Positions 29,920-38,017 of a stretch of 64,000 nt of DNA are shown piece by piece. Positions within the stretch are counted from its first letter, which is position 1; each line of letters begins with the position of its first letter. The translations under genes and the position numbers were made by a program. This DNA is from Anaerolineae bacterium (GTDB lineage Bacteria; Chloroflexota; Anaerolineae; Anaerolineales; Anaerolineaceae), in NCBI GenBank assembly GCA_013314735.1, contig JABUFD010000001.1:744001-808000 (forward strand), written 5' to 3'. The notes beneath the pieces were generated by a model that did not search any database, was not told where the DNA came from, and saw only the letters and a program-made list of their open reading frames with translations.

Positions 29920-31635
29920 ATGATACCTGATATTCAACACGAAACATCCAAATCAGATACTGTCCAGGTTTTCCTGGCGAATGGGGAAATATTGCGGGGA
30001 AAGCGGGGAGCAACCCTCGAAAACTTCCTGACCGCGTCAAGTTCGTGGGATGAGAAAGACCAATACCTGGGCGCGATTGTAAATGGTAAGTTGCGTGAGC
30101 TTACCTACCCGGTTGAAATTGAGATCAATGTTAAGCCAATCCGGATGTCTGACCGTGACGGTGCATTAATCTACCGCAGGTCACTCACCTATATCCTGGA
30201 GGCTGCATTTGAGGAATTGTTTCCCGACGATGAATTGATCGTTGATCACTCGGTCCCCACCGGTGGTTATTTTTGCCGTGTAAAAAACCGAAATCCCCTC
30301 ACCTCGGCTGAATTGGTGCAGTTACAGGCGGTGATGCAGGAACTGGTCAAGAAGAACCTGCCTTTTGAAAAATTGCAGGTCAGCCTTGAGGAAGCCGTTC
30401 GAATTTTCGAGAGTAAGGGATTTGAGGAAAAAGTAAAATTGCTCAAATTTCGCCATAAAAAACACCTGGTGATGTACCGTCTGGGAAACCACATGGATTA
30501 TCACCACGGGTATATGGTCCCTTCCACTGGTTACCTGCACACCTTCGGTCTGCAGGCTACTGCGAATGGATTCGTTCTTCGATATCCGAGGCGTAATGCG
30601 CCGGACCGGTTGCAGGCGATGCCAGAAACGGATAAATTGGTGGAGACATTTCAACTCTACAGCCAATGGCTGAGCCGCCTGGGGATTGACTGTGTAGGTG
30701 CTTTGAATGAGGCAGTGGAATACGGAAATATCCGAGAACTGGTGTTGGTAACAGAGGCTTTGCATGAGCAGAAGATCGCTGAAATCGCCGGAAGGATTGC
30801 CGATCAACGTGATCAGATTAACCTGGTTTTGATAGCAGGCCCGTCATCGTCGGGGAAAACCACCAGTTCCAAACGTCTGACTGTCCAATTAATTGCGAGG
30901 GGAATCGTTCCCTATACACTTGAGCTGGATAATTATTTTGTCGATCGCGAACTCACACCGCGTGATGAAAATGGGGAATTCGATTTTGAACAACTGGGCG
31001 CGTTGAACATCGAGCGCTTGAACGCCGATTTAAGAAAGATGGCTTCGGGCCAGCGAGTACAGCTACCCCGGTTTGATTTCCATACCGGTAAAAGTGTGAA
31101 TGGGGAAGAGGTGCGCCTGCGTAAGAACCAGGTAATCATCATGGAAGGTATTCATGGTTTGAACCCTGGATTACTGCCAAGTTTTCCACAGGAAAAGTTG
31201 TTTCGTATTTATGCCAGTTGCCTGACACAATTGAACCTCGATCGCTACAACCGGATTTCAACTACAGACACACGGTTGATCCGGCGAATTGTTCGGGATG
31301 CACGTGAACGTGGTTACAGTGCGCAGCAAACCATCGGAAGGTGGGAATCGGTACGCCGCGGTGAAAAACGTCACATTTTCCCCTACCAGGATAATGCGGA
31401 TGAAATGCTCAACACAGCTTTGGTATATGAGCTATCAGCTTTGAAACCGCTGGCGGAACCATTGCTGCGCCAGGTGGATTACCAGAGTGAAGAGTATATA
31501 GAAGCGAACCGACTTTTGAGTATGCTGGAGTGGTTCCTGCCATTAAATCCAGAATTGATTCCCGATAATTCCATCCTGCGGGAATTCATTGGAGGGTCAA
31601 TCTTACGGGACTTCAATGTGCAGCATTTGCAATGA
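29920..31635 (+). CDS. Nucleoside (uridine) kinase with ThrRS-like TGS and SAD N-terminal domains
   Basis: 571 residues from the ATG at 29920 (AGGAG 6 nt upstream). Residues 10-75 look like a TGS domain (VQVFLANGEILRGKRGATLENFL). About 75-230 resemble the second additional domain of threonyl-/alanyl-tRNA synthetase (RSLTYILEAAFEELFPDDELIVDHSV, GYFCRV). From about 300 a P-loop uridine kinase/phosphoribulokinase domain follows: VLIAGPSSSGKTTSSKRL, LELDNYFVDRELTPRDENGEFDFE, IIMEGIHGLNP and IRRIVRDARERG. This composite is known from Clostridia, Thermotogae and Chloroflexota as a nucleoside kinase; the ThrRS catalytic core is absent. Physiological substrate not settled. Confidence 0.9.
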   Translation: MIPDIQHETSKSDTVQVFLANGEILRGKRGATLENFLTASSSWDEKDQYLGAIVNGKLRELTYPVEIEINVKPIRMSDRDGALIYRRSLTYILEAAFEELFPDDELIVDHSVPTGGYFCRVKNRNPLTSAELVQLQAVMQELVKKNLPFEKLQVSLEEAVRIFESKGFEEKVKLLKFRHKKHLVMYRLGNHMDYHHGYMVPSTGYLHTFGLQATANGFVLRYPRRNAPDRLQAMPETDKLVETFQLYSQWLSRLGIDCVGALNEAVEYGNIRELVLVTEALHEQKIAEIAGRIADQRDQINLVLIAGPSSSGKTTSSKRLTVQLIARGIVPYTLELDNYFVDRELTPRDENGEFDFEQLGALNIERLNADLRKMASGQRVQLPRFDFHTGKSVNGEEVRLRKNQVIIMEGIHGLNPGLLPSFPQEKLFRIYASCLTQLNLDRYNRISTTDTRLIRRIVRDARERGYSAQQTIGRWESVRRGEKRHIFPYQDNADEMLNTALVYELSALKPLAEPLLRQVDYQSEEYIEANRLLSMLEWFLPLNPELIPDNSILREFIGGSILRDFNVQHLQ

Positions 31636-31673
31636 TGAACAAACGACCCGATCAATCGATATCATAATGAAAC

Positions 31674-31706
31674 TCGCACCGCCAGAAATGGCGGTGCGAT
31701 TGTTTT
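31674..31706 (+). terminator. Bidirectional intrinsic terminator
   Basis: Perfect 11-bp GC-rich stem (31674-31684 with 31689-31699) with a GAAA tetraloop, then TTGTTTT. It lies between the convergent kinase and aminotransferase genes. Confidence 0.9.
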
Positions 31707-31740
31707 CGGGTAATATCCTGTGCGACGGAAAATTTGGGTT

Positions 31741-32973
31741 TCAATGATCCCCTTTCTCTTCCAGGTATGCATTGTACGCAGCCACAAGCCGCTTTACCCC
31801 TGTTACAATTGAATCTGGTGAGGCATTTGAGAAGTTGAGGCGCATCGCATTTATCATCGCGTGGTTACCGGGGAAGAATTGAATCCCGGGAACGAATGCA
31901 ACCTTTTCTTTCTCCGCATAAGCCAGCAGTTCGGTGGTATCAATCGTTTCGGGAAGGAAGGCCCAGATAAACAATCCGCCTTTGGGGTGGGTCCACGTGC
32001 AGCCTTCCGGCATGAATTTTTCCAACGCATCCAGCATGATGTCCCTGCGTTGGGCATATACCCGCCGAATCAGTTGGACATGTTCGTCGATAAAACCGTC
32101 TTTGATCATTTCATACGTAACCACCTGATTGAAGGTGGCAGAATGAAGGTCCGCTCCCTGCTTGGCCAGGTTAATCTTGTTGATTACATTTAATGGCGCT
32201 ATCACATAAGCCATGCGCATACCCGGGGCGAGAACCTTGGAGAACGTGCCAAGATAAATGACATCACCACAGTAATTCCCGGGGCAATTGCGATAGTATG
32301 AATCCAGTTTAAGTAGTGAATCAATCGGCTCACAGTCAAAATTAAGCTGCCCATACGGATCATCTTCGACGAGTGGTATCCCGTAATGGTCAGCGATTTC
32401 CAGGATACGTTTCCGCCGCTCCAATGTCAACGATACCCCGGTGGGGTTGTGGTAATTCGGCTGTACATAAGCAAATTTTGGGCCGCAACGGGCAGAATTT
32501 TCAAATTCTTCAGGAATCAAACCATCATCGTCAATTTTCGTTGCGATGTACGAAGCACCGTACGCATTCCAGGCTTGAAGTGCCCCAAGATAGGTAGGGG
32601 ATTCCACCAGAATATGGTCGCCTTCATTGATGAAAACGCGACCGAGCATGTCGAGGGATTGCTGTGAACCGCTGGTGATGATAATGTTATCAGGAGACAC
32701 CTTAATGCCAATCGGGTTGTTTTCAGCGATCCATTCTCGTAGTGGCGTGTACCCACCTGTTGTACCATATTGGAGGGCTATACTGCCTTTTTCTTTCAAA
32801 ACCTTGGAACAAGCCTCGTCGAATTGCTGGCAGGGGAAAATTTTTGGTGCAGGAAGACCACCAGCGAACGAAATTACATCCTCCATTTCGGTGAATTTGA
32901 GCAACTTTCGGATGGGTGACTCTTTCATGAAATCGATTCGCTTGGAATACCTTGTATCCCATGTTGTTTTCAT
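31741..32973 (-). CDS. PLP-dependent aminotransferase (class I, LysN/2-aminoadipate type)
   Basis: 410 residues. Fold-type I aminotransferase: ISFAGGLPAPKIFP near the start, LQYGTTGGYTPLREWIAE, TSGSQQSLDMLGRVF, PNYHNPTGVSLTLERRKRIL with the cofactor-contacting Asn, DDPYGQLNFD, and GTFSKVLAPGMRMAYV with the Schiff-base Lys. The GGLPAP and YGTTGGYTPLRE patterns are those of the LysN / multisubstrate branch (2-aminoadipate, aromatic or branched-chain substrates). Shine-Dalgarno AAGGAG is 8 nt before the ATG. Monocistronic by its surroundings. Confidence 0.92.
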   Translation of the reverse strand: MKTTWDTRYSKRIDFMKESPIRKLLKFTEMEDVISFAGGLPAPKIFPCQQFDEACSKVLKEKGSIALQYGTTGGYTPLREWIAENNPIGIKVSPDNIIITSGSQQSLDMLGRVFINEGDHILVESPTYLGALQAWNAYGASYIATKIDDDGLIPEEFENSARCGPKFAYVQPNYHNPTGVSLTLERRKRILEIADHYGIPLVEDDPYGQLNFDCEPIDSLLKLDSYYRNCPGNYCGDVIYLGTFSKVLAPGMRMAYVIAPLNVINKINLAKQGADLHSATFNQVVTYEMIKDGFIDEHVQLIRRVYAQRRDIMLDALEKFMPEGCTWTHPKGGLFIWAFLPETIDTTELLAYAEKEKVAFVPGIQFFPGNHAMINAMRLNFSNASPDSIVTGVKRLVAAYNAYLEEKGDH

Positions 32974-33077
32974 ACCCTACACTCCTTCTGTGTAATTTTG
33001 CCTGACTGGAGACAAATTAATAACATTCCTGAAAAAATCATCAGCAGGCGATGCCGATGCCTGCTGATGGAATCACT

Positions 33078-36000
33078 TCATTTCTTTTTCGCAAACATGA
33101 GGTAACGTGAGAGGACTATTGCGCGCGAAGGCAGGGAGAACCGGTCGCCGGGAACCAATGCATTTGGCATTTTCCCAATTTCATCTGGCGAACCCTGGAA
33201 GATGGCAATTTCGGTGTTTTCAGCACTAAATTTGGATTCAACGAGTGCCATGCCGGAGAAATAGCCTTCGGTGTCAATGGCACAGCTGGTTACACGTCCA
33301 ATCACGCGTCCTTTGTCGTTCAGCACCGGGTCACCGAGGTGGGCTTTTTTGGTGCGTTGATCCAAAAACCGGAAGCGTACCAGCTCAGTCTGCCGCGCAG
33401 CTTCCTGTTCCAAAAATGCCTGGCGGCCGATGAACCAGGGTTTATACGTTTTCACAAAGTAGGCAAATCCCGCCTGACCGACTGTCAGGTGATAGGGGCC
33501 ATCGAGCTCATGCCCGTAAAGGGGCAACCCATATTCGGTGCGGAGCGAATCCCGTGCGCCCAATCCGCATGGCTTCAGGCCTTTGGACGTTCCTGCTTTC
33601 ATAAGTGCGTTCCAAAAATCAACAGCCTGGTCAGGGTGTACGAACAGCTCAAAGGAGATCGTTTCGCCGGTATAGCCTGTCCGGGACACCACCAGCTCGA
33701 ATCCGCCGATGGTTGCCTCACACAGTTGTGATCGGCTGAGGTTCTTCACTCGTGCTATGGTCTCGCGGTCCGCCCCAAGGCTGAGTAAGATATCCTGTGA
33801 TTTTGGCCCTTGAAGCGCAATATCAACCTTCATATCTTCTCCCGCCTGTGGGTCCTTCAGGTTTCGAAGGAAAACTTTTCGCCCAAAGGCACGAGCGCCG
33901 GGTGACTGATGATCAATCAGGGCGGTTCCTTGCTGTACAGCAGCCAGCCATGCCCAGTCTTTTTCTTCGTTGGACGCGTTGACAACAACCAGGTATTTTT
34001 CTACCGCACGGCGGTAGACGATCAGATCATCGATTACCCTCGCATCGGGGTCAAGGAAGTGGGTATAACAGGATTCACCAACCTCGAGCGCGCCGATGTC
34101 ATTGCCGCAGACTGAATCAAGGAAGACCGAAGCACATGGACCCTCGGCCTGGAAAACACCCATGTGAGAAACATCGAACAGACCGGCAGCTGTGCGTGTG
34201 GCAACATGTTCGTCGGAGATCGAGGTGTATTGAACCGGCATTTCCCAACCGGCAAACTCCACCATTTTGCCCCCCAACGAAACATGGGTATCAAACAGGG
34301 GGGTTCGCTTGGGTGTGTCCCGTATAGGTTCGTTCCAGGAAAAAACGGGCAATGGTTGGTCAAAAACCTTCTGTTTGCCGATGTAATATGGTTTCCGGGC
34401 ACAGATGGATTCGCCTTCGGTTGGCAGATCGGGAATGTCAGTGGATCCATTGATAGTTACCGGGCCAGGGATGCGGCGGAGCAGGTCATCATCAAAGCCA
34501 ATGTATGCGTCTGACAGGTCACGTAGCCAGGCAGCAGCCACAGCCGCTTCTTCCACTGCAAAAATGACCTGGAATTTTTCTGCGCCTGTGCGGTGAAGCC
34601 AGCCGTTCACAGCACCAGAGGGCATAAAAAGGGTGGTTTTTTGGGTTTCACCGACCAGCAGTTTCTCAGCATCACTGGCGAAGACAAAGTTCACAAAATC
34701 GAGTGTTTTACCGCCATAAATATCATACGCCGCTTTGCCATTGACAGCATTTACCGGTTCGTCAATAAAATAATTGAACGGATAACCATGGATGGGTTCT
34801 GAACTGTAACTATTGGCTTTTTGGCACAATGTCCGGACGCGAAGTTTTATCGTTTCGAGTGTATGAAAGTCCACCTTGGCGCGGGTTGTTGTTCCTTTAC
34901 GAGCCTGAATCTGGTACGGGGTGATACTGGTTAACAGGTCTGCGATGATATCAGCCAATTCAACCATATCTGTTTCTTCAAGACCGCGCTGTGTGACCCA
35001 TGGGGTACCGAAGCGGACGCCACTTGCGGATAAAGCGGAGCGGTCACCAGGGATGGTATTGCGGTTGACCGTGATCCCGGCAACATCGAGGATACGGGCA
35101 GCGAGGTCTCCATCCAGCGGAGTGCCATCCGGGCCTTTCACCGATTTGCAATCAATATTGGCGAGGTGAGAATTGGTGCCGCCATAGGAAATATGCAAAC
35201 CCCGTTCCTGAAGCCTGTTCACCATGGTTTTACAGTTTGCCAGGATTTCGCGCTGGAGGCTGACGAATTTTGCAGTGGCGGCGAATTTGAAGGCGGTTGC
35301 GAGGGCGACAATGGTGTTCAGATGGGGACCGCCTTGTTCGCCAGGGAATACTGCGCGGTCAATCTTGCCGGCGAGGGCTGCGTTATCCGTGATGACGCAA
35401 GCGCCACGGGGACCACAGAGGGTTTTGTGGGTGGTGAAAGTAATCACATGCGCATAGCCGACTGGTGACGGAACTACCTTTGCGGCAACCAACCCGGCAA
35501 TGTGTGATATATCGGTGACCAATTTAGCGCCGGTTGCATCGGCGATCTGGCGGAAACGTGCCCAATCTGGAATGATGGGGTAGGAGGAATAGCCGGCAAC
35601 GATCACCTTTGGTTTTGCCTGGAGTGCAAGTGCCTCAATTGCATCATAATCCAATTGTTCGGTGTGGGGATCCACCTCATAGGAAACAACATGGTACAGT
35701 TTCCCAGAGCGATTAACGGGGGAGCCGTGGGTGAGATGACCTCCATGAAGTAGATTCATCCCCATCAGCGTATCGCCGGGTTCCAGCAAAGCCTGATAGA
35801 CTGCATTATTGGCGGGAGCGCCGGAGAGCGTCTGGACATTAACGTACAACTGGTCAGCAGGAACCCGCTCTGTGGCGAACAATTCCGCACAGCGTTGGCG
35901 TGCCAGGGCTTCTGCAATATCGGCAAACTCCACCCCTTTGTAATAGCGCGGGTCAGCGTAACGCCTGTAATGGGTCAGCCGGGAGGGATAATCAAGGATG

Positions 36001-36218
36001 TCCTCCTGGGACATGTGACGGGTGATTTCGTGCGGGTAACCCTCGGCATAAACATTCTGGAATTCTGAACCCATTGCTTCCAAAATGGATGGGGGAGCCA
36101 TACTTTCACTGGGTATTAATATTAACCGATTACGCTGGCGATCTTGCTCATGATGGATCAACTCAGCTACTTCGGGATCAAGCTCTTCCAAAGAACCTTT
36201 AAATAAATAATCACCCAT
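33078..36218 (-). CDS. glyA-gcvT: Serine hydroxymethyltransferase-aminomethyltransferase (GlyA-GcvT) fusion
   Basis: 1046 residues from the ATG at 36218 (AAGGAG 9 nt upstream). Residues about 1-470 are serine hydroxymethyltransferase: QNVYAEGYPHEITRHMSQEDILDYP, SGAPANNAVYQALLEPGDTLMG, TDISHIAGLVAAKVVPSP and TTHKTLCGPRG with the PLP Lys. Residues about 636-1046 are GcvT: FDTHVSLGGKMVEFAGWEMPVQY, FDVSHMG, DDLIVYRR, VVSRTGYTGETISFELFVHP and RDSLRTEYGLPLYGHEL. Residues about 480-635 match neither part in an obvious way. Both ends use tetrahydrofolate one-carbon units: serine/glycine exchange and glycine cleavage. No gcvH, gcvP or lpd gene is in the window. One reading frame without a break, own promoter. 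Confidence 0.94.
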   Translation of the reverse strand: MGDYLFKGSLEELDPEVAELIHHEQDRQRNRLILIPSESMAPPSILEAMGSEFQNVYAEGYPHEITRHMSQEDILDYPSRLTHYRRYADPRYYKGVEFADIAEALARQRCAELFATERVPADQLYVNVQTLSGAPANNAVYQALLEPGDTLMGMNLLHGGHLTHGSPVNRSGKLYHVVSYEVDPHTEQLDYDAIEALALQAKPKVIVAGYSSYPIIPDWARFRQIADATGAKLVTDISHIAGLVAAKVVPSPVGYAHVITFTTHKTLCGPRGACVITDNAALAGKIDRAVFPGEQGGPHLNTIVALATAFKFAATAKFVSLQREILANCKTMVNRLQERGLHISYGGTNSHLANIDCKSVKGPDGTPLDGDLAARILDVAGITVNRNTIPGDRSALSASGVRFGTPWVTQRGLEETDMVELADIIADLLTSITPYQIQARKGTTTRAKVDFHTLETIKLRVRTLCQKANSYSSEPIHGYPFNYFIDEPVNAVNGKAAYDIYGGKTLDFVNFVFASDAEKLLVGETQKTTLFMPSGAVNGWLHRTGAEKFQVIFAVEEAAVAAAWLRDLSDAYIGFDDDLLRRIPGPVTINGSTDIPDLPTEGESICARKPYYIGKQKVFDQPLPVFSWNEPIRDTPKRTPLFDTHVSLGGKMVEFAGWEMPVQYTSISDEHVATRTAAGLFDVSHMGVFQAEGPCASVFLDSVCGNDIGALEVGESCYTHFLDPDARVIDDLIVYRRAVEKYLVVVNASNEEKDWAWLAAVQQGTALIDHQSPGARAFGRKVFLRNLKDPQAGEDMKVDIALQGPKSQDILLSLGADRETIARVKNLSRSQLCEATIGGFELVVSRTGYTGETISFELFVHPDQAVDFWNALMKAGTSKGLKPCGLGARDSLRTEYGLPLYGHELDGPYHLTVGQAGFAYFVKTYKPWFIGRQAFLEQEAARQTELVRFRFLDQRTKKAHLGDPVLNDKGRVIGRVTSCAIDTEGYFSGMALVESKFSAENTEIAIFQGSPDEIGKMPNALVPGDRFSLPSRAIVLSRYLMFAKKK

Positions 36219-36293
36219 GAACATCCACTCCTTGTAATTTGCCATTCTGTGGTCAATTATGACCCGTGTGTGATATGGTTTATGCCTGCCTTA

Positions 36294-36322
36294 ATTCTAA
36301 TCTCACCGGTGTGGATGGTCAA
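36294..36322 (-). promoter_or_regulatory. Promoter of the glyA-gcvT fusion gene
   Basis: On the minus strand TTGACC (36322-36317), 17 nt, TAGAAT (36299-36294). Both hexamers match 5/6 with ideal spacing. The leader of about 70 nt contains a GGTCA-TGACC inverted repeat at 36251-36264 of unknown meaning. Confidence 0.7.
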
Positions 36323-36330
36323 GTGCAGTA

Positions 36331-36366
36331 CACAAGGGCATGCCTGAGATAAGGCATGCCCTTGTG
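36331..36366 (-). terminator. Long perfect hairpin after the small membrane protein gene
   Basis: A perfect 15-bp stem (36331-36345 with 36352-36366) with a 6-nt loop. There is no U-run after it on the minus strand, so it may be a weak terminator, a 3'-end stabiliser or an insulator just upstream of the glyA-gcvT promoter. Confidence 0.5.
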
Positions 36367-36390
36367 GATGATTCATTTTCTGTGCTCCAG

Positions 36391-36807
36391 TTATTCCGCG
36401 GGTGCAGTATCAGCTGGGTGGGTTTGTGGTTCAAGGCAGATATGACTGAACCAATCGACCACTTCGATATCGTGATAGAAAACCAGCAGCAAAATTCCAA
36501 CAACGAGAGAGATGAAGTTTCCATACAGGATACAGGCGATATCCAATATGGCAATGGTTTGGTCTGGTTTGCAGGGGCGTGGTGGATTGGAGAGTAATTT
36601 TGCCGCGTAGGCAATTTCGAAACCACCCAGTATGATAGGCAGGATCGTGATCGGCAGGCAGCACAACCCGATAATGGTCACTGAAGCAGCAATGGTCACG
36701 CCTATTCCCCAGAAAACATTGATGATCCCATTCAAAAGGGAGAGAACAGCGATCAGGGTGATCTTGTCCGGCCGATAGACAGCATTCGATACATTATTGT
36801 TTGACAT
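36391..36807 (-). CDS. Small integral membrane protein
   Basis: 138 residues from the ATG at 36807 (AAGGA upstream). Three or four hydrophobic helices: ITLIAVLSLLNGIINVFWGIG, AASVTIIGLCCLPITILPIILGGFEIAYAAKLL and ILDIACILYGNFISLVVGILLLVF, ending in a short acidic/Pro tail. I do not recognise a family with a known role. It follows the DUF4870 gene in the same direction, 71 nt apart, and the pair may be co-transcribed. Confidence 0.75.
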   Translation of the reverse strand: MSNNNVSNAVYRPDKITLIAVLSLLNGIINVFWGIGVTIAASVTIIGLCCLPITILPIILGGFEIAYAAKLLSNPPRPCKPDQTIAILDIACILYGNFISLVVGILLLVFYHDIEVVDWFSHICLEPQTHPADTAPAE

Positions 36808-36878
36808 TTGTTTTTCCTTTCCTTCGATCGATGGAGATGGATGCGGGGATACGCATCCATCTCCGTTGTTAGCACAAA

Positions 36879-37217
36879 TTACTGAATCCAGCCCTGTTTG
36901 ATGCAAAAATCCGTGACGACCGGGATGACAACTTTCTCACCGGCATATGCTTTGATGCCAAGATAAATGGCATATCCGAGGAAGGCGATACCGACACAGA
37001 AGCCGACAAGAATGAAGGACAATGCGAAAGTGAGTACCCAGGCTACGATACCGATCACGAGCGATTGTATGGCATGGTAGCGGATAAATTCACGGTTTTT
37101 CTTGTCATCCAACAGGAGCACAATCACCGGGACGATTGGTGAGATGATGTAGCTTAACAGAGACCATAATTTGTCATCGTCGGTTACATCGGGGGCGGGA
37201 ACGAAATTTTCAGACAT
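36879..37217 (-). CDS. DUF4870 (Tic20-like) membrane protein
   Basis: 112 residues from the ATG at 37217, which has GGAGG 5 nt upstream. The pattern DDKLWSLLSYIISPIVPVIVLLLDDKKNREFIRYHAIQSL, followed by helices IGIVAWVLTFALSFILVGFCVGIAFLGYAIYLGIKAYAGE, is the DUF4870 family: two to three membrane helices and a charged loop with KNREFIRYHAIQ. Function unknown in bacteria. Confidence 0.9.
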   Translation of the reverse strand: MSENFVPAPDVTDDDKLWSLLSYIISPIVPVIVLLLDDKKNREFIRYHAIQSLVIGIVAWVLTFALSFILVGFCVGIAFLGYAIYLGIKAYAGEKVVIPVVTDFCIKQGWIQ

Positions 37218-37348
37218 AAGGACCTCCAGGGGCATTGACTAATACTATATTCGAAAAATGGGTGGAAAGGTTTCAAAACAAATATCTAGTTTATTGTATC
37301 AAAAAACTATAAAATACCAACCATGAAGTAAGCATCAGATTTAGACCG

Positions 37349-38017
37349 TCAGGAGGATTGTTCCAGTGCTGCTGAAAGTGTATACAAGACGATGGAAGCG
37401 GCGATTGCGACATTGAGTGATTCTTTAATCCCGCGCATGGGTATTTGAAAAATTTTATCCGTTGTCGCAAGCAATGCGGGGTCAACACCTGCAACCTCGT
37501 TGCCAAAAATCAAGCACAATGCCGTTTCCTTTGTGAGATTCAGAAAAGACTGCGAAAACAGATTGTCTGCGCATTCTGCGCCTTCCATGGCAATGATCCT
37601 GACACGATTTTCCCGCAATACGGCAACACGATCCACCGCATTCGGGGCGTACATCCAGCGGATGGAGGCTTCTGAACCCAAAGCGGTTTTACTGAATTTC
37701 GGATGTTCCGGGGTCGGGGTTGTTCCGCATAGAATAATTTGGGAAACAATCCCGGTACCATCGCAGGTACGGAAGATGGATCCAGTGTTAAAAACGCTGC
37801 GAAGATTGTCCAGCAAGACGAACACCTGCGGCCGACATGGCTGCAATTGGGATGGGTTACGATTTTTTTGTTGGACAATGGGGGCAGCAAATTCGGTGAC
37901 ACTCCCGCATAGGGGACAGAGTATCGGCAAGGCTTTCGACTCTGACATTGGAAAACGGAAACGGCAGGCCGGGTTGCTGCACTGGCGGAAGTGCGGTTTG
38001 AATGCCATATCACCCAT
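37349..38017 (-). CDS. SpoU/TrmH-family RNA 2'-O-methyltransferase with N-terminal zinc ribbon
   Basis: About 222 residues. An N-terminal zinc ribbon (CSNPAC...CPLCGS) precedes the SPOUT methyltransferase domain with its three motifs: LLDNLRSVFNTGSIFRTCDG, IFGNEVAGVDPALLA and IPMRGIKESLNVAIAASIVLY, which form the knotted SAM site. The target RNA is unknown. The start overlaps the tsaC stop (ATG at 38017; ATG at 38008 is the alternative), so translation is coupled. Last gene of an eight-gene leftward operon. Confidence 0.88.
   Translation of the reverse strand: MGDMAFKPHFRQCSNPACRFRFPMSESKALPILCPLCGSVTEFAAPIVQQKNRNPSQLQPCRPQVFVLLDNLRSVFNTGSIFRTCDGTGIVSQIILCGTTPTPEHPKFSKTALGSEASIRWMYAPNAVDRVAVLRENRVRIIAMEGAECADNLFSQSFLNLTKETALCLIFGNEVAGVDPALLATTDKIFQIPMRGIKESLNVAIAASIVLYTLSAALEQSS

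Follow-up and report, generated by a model that had tools for sequence, protein, structure and literature searches.

The window analysed here, a 64,000-nucleotide stretch of the genome of an Anaerolineae bacterium (assembly GCA_013314735.1, contig JABUFD010000001.1, positions 744,001 to 808,000), carries on its minus strand, at 33078..36245, a gene in which serine hydroxymethyltransferase (SHMT) and GcvT, the T-protein of the glycine cleavage system, are joined in a single unbroken open frame of 1055 amino acids, with a degenerate second copy of a GcvT domain (psiGcvT) between them. GcvT converts aminomethyl-H-protein and tetrahydrofolate (THF) into 5,10-methylene-THF, and SHMT joins methylene-THF with glycine to form serine. 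Very probably, its product is a bifunctional enzyme, the sole SHMT and the sole T-protein of the cell, in which the middle is an eroded tandem GcvT duplicate kept as a spacer or adaptor. In such an enzyme, the GcvT part would take the aminomethyl group from H-protein and yield 5,10-methylene-THF, and the SHMT part of the same chain would use this to turn a second glycine into serine, or catalyse the opposite reaction. The partners GcvH and GcvP would be supplied by gcvH-gcvPA-gcvPB, encoded elsewhere in the genome. A single chain holding both enzymes would keep producer and consumer together, and the middle, having lost its active site, would remain as a compact domain that links the catalytic parts as a structured spacer or adaptor.

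An initial annotation of this DNA, made by eye, had proposed that two folate one-carbon enzymes are fused in one uninterrupted frame, and this is borne out by Pfam and NCBIfam, with both halves above curated cut-offs. The chain is laid out as an SHMT part (about residues 10-480), a middle domain (about 500-602, plus linkers) and a GcvT part (about 646-1055), and its full-chain structure model has a mean predicted local distance difference test score (pLDDT) of 89 and a predicted template modelling score (pTM) of 0.86. The plus-strand reading of the span 33078-36322 contains 18 stops. The SHMT part (34806..36218, minus strand; residues 10-480) matches Pfam SHMT (PF00464) with 422 bits against a cut-off of 27, the best stretch being residues 96-434, and NCBIfam PRK00011 with 429.5 against a curated cut-off of 335. 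A match to PRK13580, under that model's own cut-off, extends the SHMT part to residue 480, and the full-chain model places a helix at 460-477, beyond the Pfam match; residues 446-480 are a continuation of SHMT, that is, a C-terminal extension. Nine positions that we take to be active-site residues (S46, Y66, E68, Y102, H170, D245, H248, K274 and R411) do not vary among the 70 aligned proteins, the window's own included. The fusion shares with canonical SHMTs (PF00464; PRK00011, PRK13580) the catalytic core, the TTHKT motif with the pyridoxal phosphate lysine K274 and all active-site residues compared. It differs from them in the GcvT-derived domain and the whole GcvT attached at its C-terminus, and in some 27 residues (at profile positions 57-84) that are absent from seven canonical Chloroflexota SHMTs. 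This extra stretch corresponds to residues 71-98 or so (about 35952-36035 of the window, minus strand) and is possibly linked to the PRK13580 type.

The GcvT part is likewise full (33081..34310, minus strand; residues 646-1055): Pfam GCV_T (PF01571) matches residues 651-916 with 250.4 bits against a cut-off of 25.6, and the NCBIfam GcvT models PRK00389 and TIGR00528 are matched above their curated cut-offs (273.9 against 235.85 and 300.7 against 300). Its catalytic Asp, D739, aligns with D97 of Escherichia coli GcvT (the number 97 being that in the title of entry 3a8k), and D739, D740, N756, Y858, E861 and R902 are identical in all 70 aligned proteins, the window's included. Like GcvT (PF01571; TIGR00528), the part has a folate-binding domain and an Asp at the position of E. 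coli D97; it is unlike stand-alone GcvT in its covalent position behind SHMT and in a C-terminal barrel that stays under its Pfam cut-off, a point taken up below. It also probably carries an insertion relative to stand-alone GcvT, because the match of a fused-GcvT profile is interrupted near positions 130-167 in six of nine stand-alone GcvT-like proteins.

The initial annotation had called the middle of the chain unexplained, which was fair, since residues 446-640 of the window protein on their own have no Pfam match. Profile comparison identifies residues 500-602 (34440..34748, minus strand) as a truncated, degenerate second GcvT module without an active site, the source of which we take to be the ferredoxin-like domain of GcvT. 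When 24 middle segments were aligned with 26 GcvT parts by hhalign (six long or cut middle copies, L045, L047, L048, L049, L054 and L055, being excluded), the match reached a probability of 99.4 and an E-value of 1.6e-21 over 105 columns, and neither of the two controls, which paired the middle with SHMT and SHMT with GcvT, was significant; a profile of the same GcvT parts finds the window's own middle with an E-value of 5e-5. Among PDB sequences, a profile of 48 middle segments matches Bacillus subtilis GcvT (1yx2) best (E-value 1e-5) and E. coli GcvT second (0.02-0.04), followed by one unrelated chain at 0.54. Pfam GCV_T matches 31 of these 48 segments from relatives, with a best E-value of 7.8e-7, and one of the 48 matches an unrelated Pfam family.

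Structure prediction, which the initial annotation had suggested for the full chain, points the same way. In the model, the middle runs strand 504-510, helix 514-521, strands 534-541, 544-554 and 557-563, helix 564-579 and strand 597-601, and the full GcvT has the identical order (strand 696-701, helix 705-712, strands 724-731, 737-747 and 750-755, helix 757-772, strand 792-795). As a fold search with the whole chain returned SHMTs only among the 50 matches listed, the middle was modelled separately (pLDDT 85, pTM 0.81). The first 41 Foldseek rows for this lone model are GcvT, dimethylglycine dehydrogenase, sarcosine oxidase, YgfZ/IBA57, LigM and dimethylsulfoniopropionate demethylase (best E-value 1.1e-5). 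Rows 1-7 of the VIA-align search have Z-scores of 10.4-11.6 at 2.3-3.2 Å over 107-118 residues, and an unrelated protein first appears at a Z-score of 5.9; some further rows of the GcvT-like family have a large root-mean-square deviation. In the hhalign alignment, the position of the GcvT catalytic Asp is deleted from the window's middle. Six residues of a WLRxLSD motif in the middle (W573, L574, R575, L577, S578 and D579) are invariant across all 70 aligned proteins, within a domain of which the mean identity to the window protein is 40%, against 64% for SHMT and 63% for GcvT. The linker that follows (34311..34439, minus strand) contains KPYYIGKQ (residues 618-625), which parallels KPWFIGRQ (935-942) of the full GcvT; its K618 is kept in 70 and its P619 in 69 of the 70 proteins, and in the two largest middle copies KP(Y/F)xIG stands in register with KP(W/F)FIGR of GcvT, so that the linker is a probable remnant of the deleted remainder of the duplicate. 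The middle is therefore a piece neither of SHMT nor of the full GcvT: the initial suspicion that it might be a plain part of one of them holds for the SHMT extension up to about residue 480 and for the GcvT ancestry of about 500-602, and fails in that the latter is a degenerate extra copy. Two other identities were considered and ruled out: a new domain, by the hhalign, PDB sequence and fold matches, and a part of the SHMT core, by the lack of any match of the middle to the SHMT profile.

How the middle came about can be read from relatives in which more of it is left. In L047 it covers GcvT profile positions 2-308 and in L045 positions 41-305, both with the Asp pair kept; in L049 it covers positions 41-245 with the Asp pair lost, and in the remaining lineages roughly positions 50-160 or less, a piece of about 105 residues in the window. 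In a GcvT tree rooted on eight canonical GcvTs of the phylum, fused GcvTs, split GcvTs and the L047 middle form one clade (100/100). In this tree, which has L047's as its only middle copy (L045_mid, L049_mid, L185_canon, L051_fus and L052_fus being left out), that copy falls inside the group of fused GcvTs at modest support (82/80), and another GcvT tree with three middle copies agrees, the exact position of these copies being unsure because of their long branches. We infer that a tandem GcvT duplicate arose within the fusion lineage and was then reduced by internal deletion. The fusion has also come apart: in one family (f4), six of seven sampled genomes have SHMT plus middle in frames of 591-639 amino acids and a separate gcvT, adjacent in another frame in four and on different contigs in two. 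The GcvTs so separated form the sister group of the fused one in the seventh genome, G283 (100/99), inside the fused clade (98/93). In all six the middle remains on SHMT and ends shortly after the PGPV strand; in four of these six SHMT proteins the middle profile matches and the GcvT profile stays under threshold there. This family is best read as having split the fusion again, with the relic staying on SHMT.

Copy number is in line with a sole source of both activities. The window's genome has one SHMT locus and one GCV_T locus, both in the fusion gene; a separate glyA or gcvT did not turn up in it, so the redundancy that the initial annotation had raised as an objection does not arise here. 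That annotation had also placed gcvH and gcvP outside the window, and the genome's matches do lie elsewhere on the same contig, in a gcvH-gcvPA-gcvPB cluster at 1134652-1137457, 354 kb away and without gcvT (the genes beside it were identified by eye). Across genomes with the middle, 49 of 54 have no SHMT-family match above cut-off outside the fusion or split genes (two of the 49 hold two fusion copies each), and 53 of 54 have gcvP, the exception, G129, being 82% complete. Fifty genomes were sorted by their gcvT: four have a separate canonical gcvT (G116, G105, G209 and G153; E-value 1e-92 or better), three are split, and the other 43 have no gcvT of either kind. All four genomes with a canonical gcvT have A, G or S in place of the D97-equivalent Asp in their fused GcvT; 21 of 21 fused GcvTs inspected from 19 genomes without one have D. 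This comparison excluded G241 (a cut GcvT piece without the Asp, its separate gcvT being unchecked) and G372 (a fused GcvT with the Asp, outside the 50-genome set). Among the genomes compared, the Asp is lost only where a separate canonical gcvT exists. On the simplest reading, the fused GcvT serves as T-protein in any cell that has no other, and it probably does so in the window's organism. G116 has its separate gcvT roughly 1 kb away from gcvP; this genome also holds two other SHMT-family genes, and both halves of its fusion (L052) look degenerate (S46A, Y66D, Y102N and H273Y in SHMT, D739S in GcvT).

The distribution of the fusion within its phylum was surveyed at whole-genome level. At least 65 of 400 Chloroflexota genomes have the middle in a single frame of at least 1000 amino acids (hand-counted from the rows listed, frames running from stop to stop), seven more have it in a shorter frame taken as cut or broken (G232, G397, G144, G241, G280, G287 and G189) and six are split. 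In the window's order, its own family included, all 36 sampled genomes have the middle, 34 of them in a full-length frame; the 19 genomes from the rest of the class comprise six fused, one cut, six split and six with neither, these last having an SHMT of canonical length instead. A GTDB scan gave 395 relatives, of which the 80 listed are all Chloroflexota and include isolates (the seven named being Bellilinea, Longilinea, Anaerolinea, Thermanaerothrix, Ornatilinea, Flexilinea and Pelolinea). Of the 80 loci, 69 have the gene in a single frame at full length (defined by a match that begins at residue 60 or earlier and reaches residue 1000 or later), eight are cut by a contig end and three are broken over frames.

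Variants of the locus were also seen. L105 and L133 are a pair of fusion copies that share a contig at a distance of some 10 kb (JAUWFP010000006.1, CSMAG_2219), and in the first 900 bases or so of L106 (CP070708.1) and L101 (DUEZ01000089.1) a second fusion-type GcvT end lies just upstream of the full copy. Two differing fusion versions occur in G192 (L032 and L044), where one copy sits some 1 kb away from gcvPA-gcvPB and faces it, and in G011 (L029 and L045), where one has the larger middle. L048 (G023) is a stop-to-stop frame of 1426 residues with about 320 residues ahead of its SHMT part; this N-terminal stretch (residues 1-325) may be upstream non-coding sequence only.

Several observations weigh against a bifunctional enzyme that is the sole source of both activities and has a GcvT-derived adaptor. 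Pfam, as said, gives nothing on the window's own middle, and the GcvT C-terminal barrel (PF08669) reaches 16.9 bits against a cut-off of 25.9, strands being predicted across that region (953-1045) in the full-chain model. Six genomes run the split version, and physical fusion is therefore not required. Another SHMT-family gene is present in five of the 54 genomes (G116, G372, G019, G349 and G081). Further, 23 of the 50 genomes, all within the 43 without canonical or split gcvT and five of them among the 19 in the Asp comparison, hold a stand-alone GCV_T-family protein, with scores far under those of canonical gcvT (frames of 370-442 amino acids, one of 600; E-values 1e-31 to 1e-64). Of five such proteins inspected, one (L185:467-1711) is nearest to the C-terminal part of trimethylamine N-oxide (TMAO) demethylase and under both GcvT cut-offs, and the other four lack parts of the GcvT signature; the window's genome has no such extra protein. 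Finally, the Asp loss amounts to one or two independent events, because three of the four genomes belong to one family, f48. The same four genomes speak for the idea that SHMT alone works and the GcvT part is a structural appendage, which is very unlikely for the window, where no other gcvT exists, gcvH and gcvP are present and all GcvT residues compared are intact. An assembly or frame artefact is hardly credible: the gene is broken over two frames in three of the 80 listed loci and nothing in favour was found for the window itself, and the phylum and GTDB surveys, with isolates among the full-length loci and contig ends explaining eight more, refute it.

The role of the middle leaves more room for other views. 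The fusion might merely equalise the amounts of the two enzymes, with the middle a nearly neutral relic linker. The two separate genes of f4, even on different contigs, would fit this, as would a middle that is less conserved than both enzymes and varies in length and content between lineages; we regard it as rather doubtful, given the invariant residues, the retention after the split and the presence of the middle in all uncut fusions mapped. Alternatively, the middle could be kept for a function of its own, binding H-protein, folate or the polyglutamate tail of folate, and gating or channelling methylene-THF, so that the protein would be a true channelling enzyme. The WLRxLSD residues, invariant against the weak conservation around them, the persistence on SHMT after splitting and the whole-chain pTM, which suggests a defined arrangement in the model, are in its favour, and PMC7227101 reports that formaldehyde forms in the glycine cleavage system when methylene-THF decomposes, so that proximity could pay. 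The catalytic position is gone, however, and the linkers are variable; we regard such a function as improbable. Similarly unlikely, in our estimate, is its strongest form, a Chloroflexota channelling glycine-to-serine synthase that holds SHMT and T-protein in fixed geometry, the GcvT pseudo-domain acting as an adaptor that docks the folate tail, H-protein or SHMT and a dead duplicate having become the scaffold of the fusion. Putative channelling of methylene-THF as such is plausible. Because six residues are invariant in an otherwise weakly conserved middle that is retained after the split, we favour a role for it as a structural adaptor, which would act mainly towards SHMT.

The start and the flanking signals of the gene can be placed with varying confidence. 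The true start is probably Met10 (36218), which would give a protein of 1046 amino acids, because this position is M in 66 of 70 aligned homologues and AAGGAG lies just upstream of its ATG. The clean promoter said in the initial annotation to drive the gene alone corresponds to a promoter-like site, TTGACC-17-TAGAAT, at 36294..36322 (minus strand); the site exists, and is not above chance, since the motif scan found four sites of this kind in the region, where 3.8 would be expected. Transcription as a single unit fits the strong downstream signal, an intrinsic terminator after the fusion stop codon (33032-33069, minus strand) with an 11-bp stem, a 9-nt loop and a T run (-20.7 kcal/mol, z -5.3), and the position of this hairpin and T run 3' of the stop suggests that the transcript probably ends there. 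No Rfam match was found across 31500-37500. Directly 3' of the terminator, on the same strand, lies a gene (31741-32973) that looks by eye like a PLP-dependent aminotransferase.

No report of an SHMT-GcvT fusion was found in the titles and abstract starts of the open-licence PubMed Central (PMC) literature, and the passages found in PMC7311316 and PMC6451014 do not mention one. If our reading is true, the gene would be a natural single-chain link from glycine cleavage to serine synthesis, relevant to engineering of the reductive glycine pathway, and would bear on the long-standing question of methylene-THF channelling. The erosion series, the split in f4 and the loss of catalysis beside a second gcvT would together form a stepwise record of how a duplicate domain becomes a pseudo-domain within a fusion. 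For annotation, it means that the gcv cluster in such genomes seems to lack gcvT. GcvT-like modules on the chain of another enzyme are known from dimethylglycine dehydrogenase/oxidase, sarcosine oxidase alpha and TMAO demethylase, PDB chains of which were matched, and the partners there presumably act in one-carbon chemistry as well. In those proteins the module accompanies a flavin enzyme or a demethylase; in the window's gene its companion is SHMT, and a further, degenerate GcvT copy stands between the two. What is new is the fusion of two known enzymes with an internal pseudo-domain between them.

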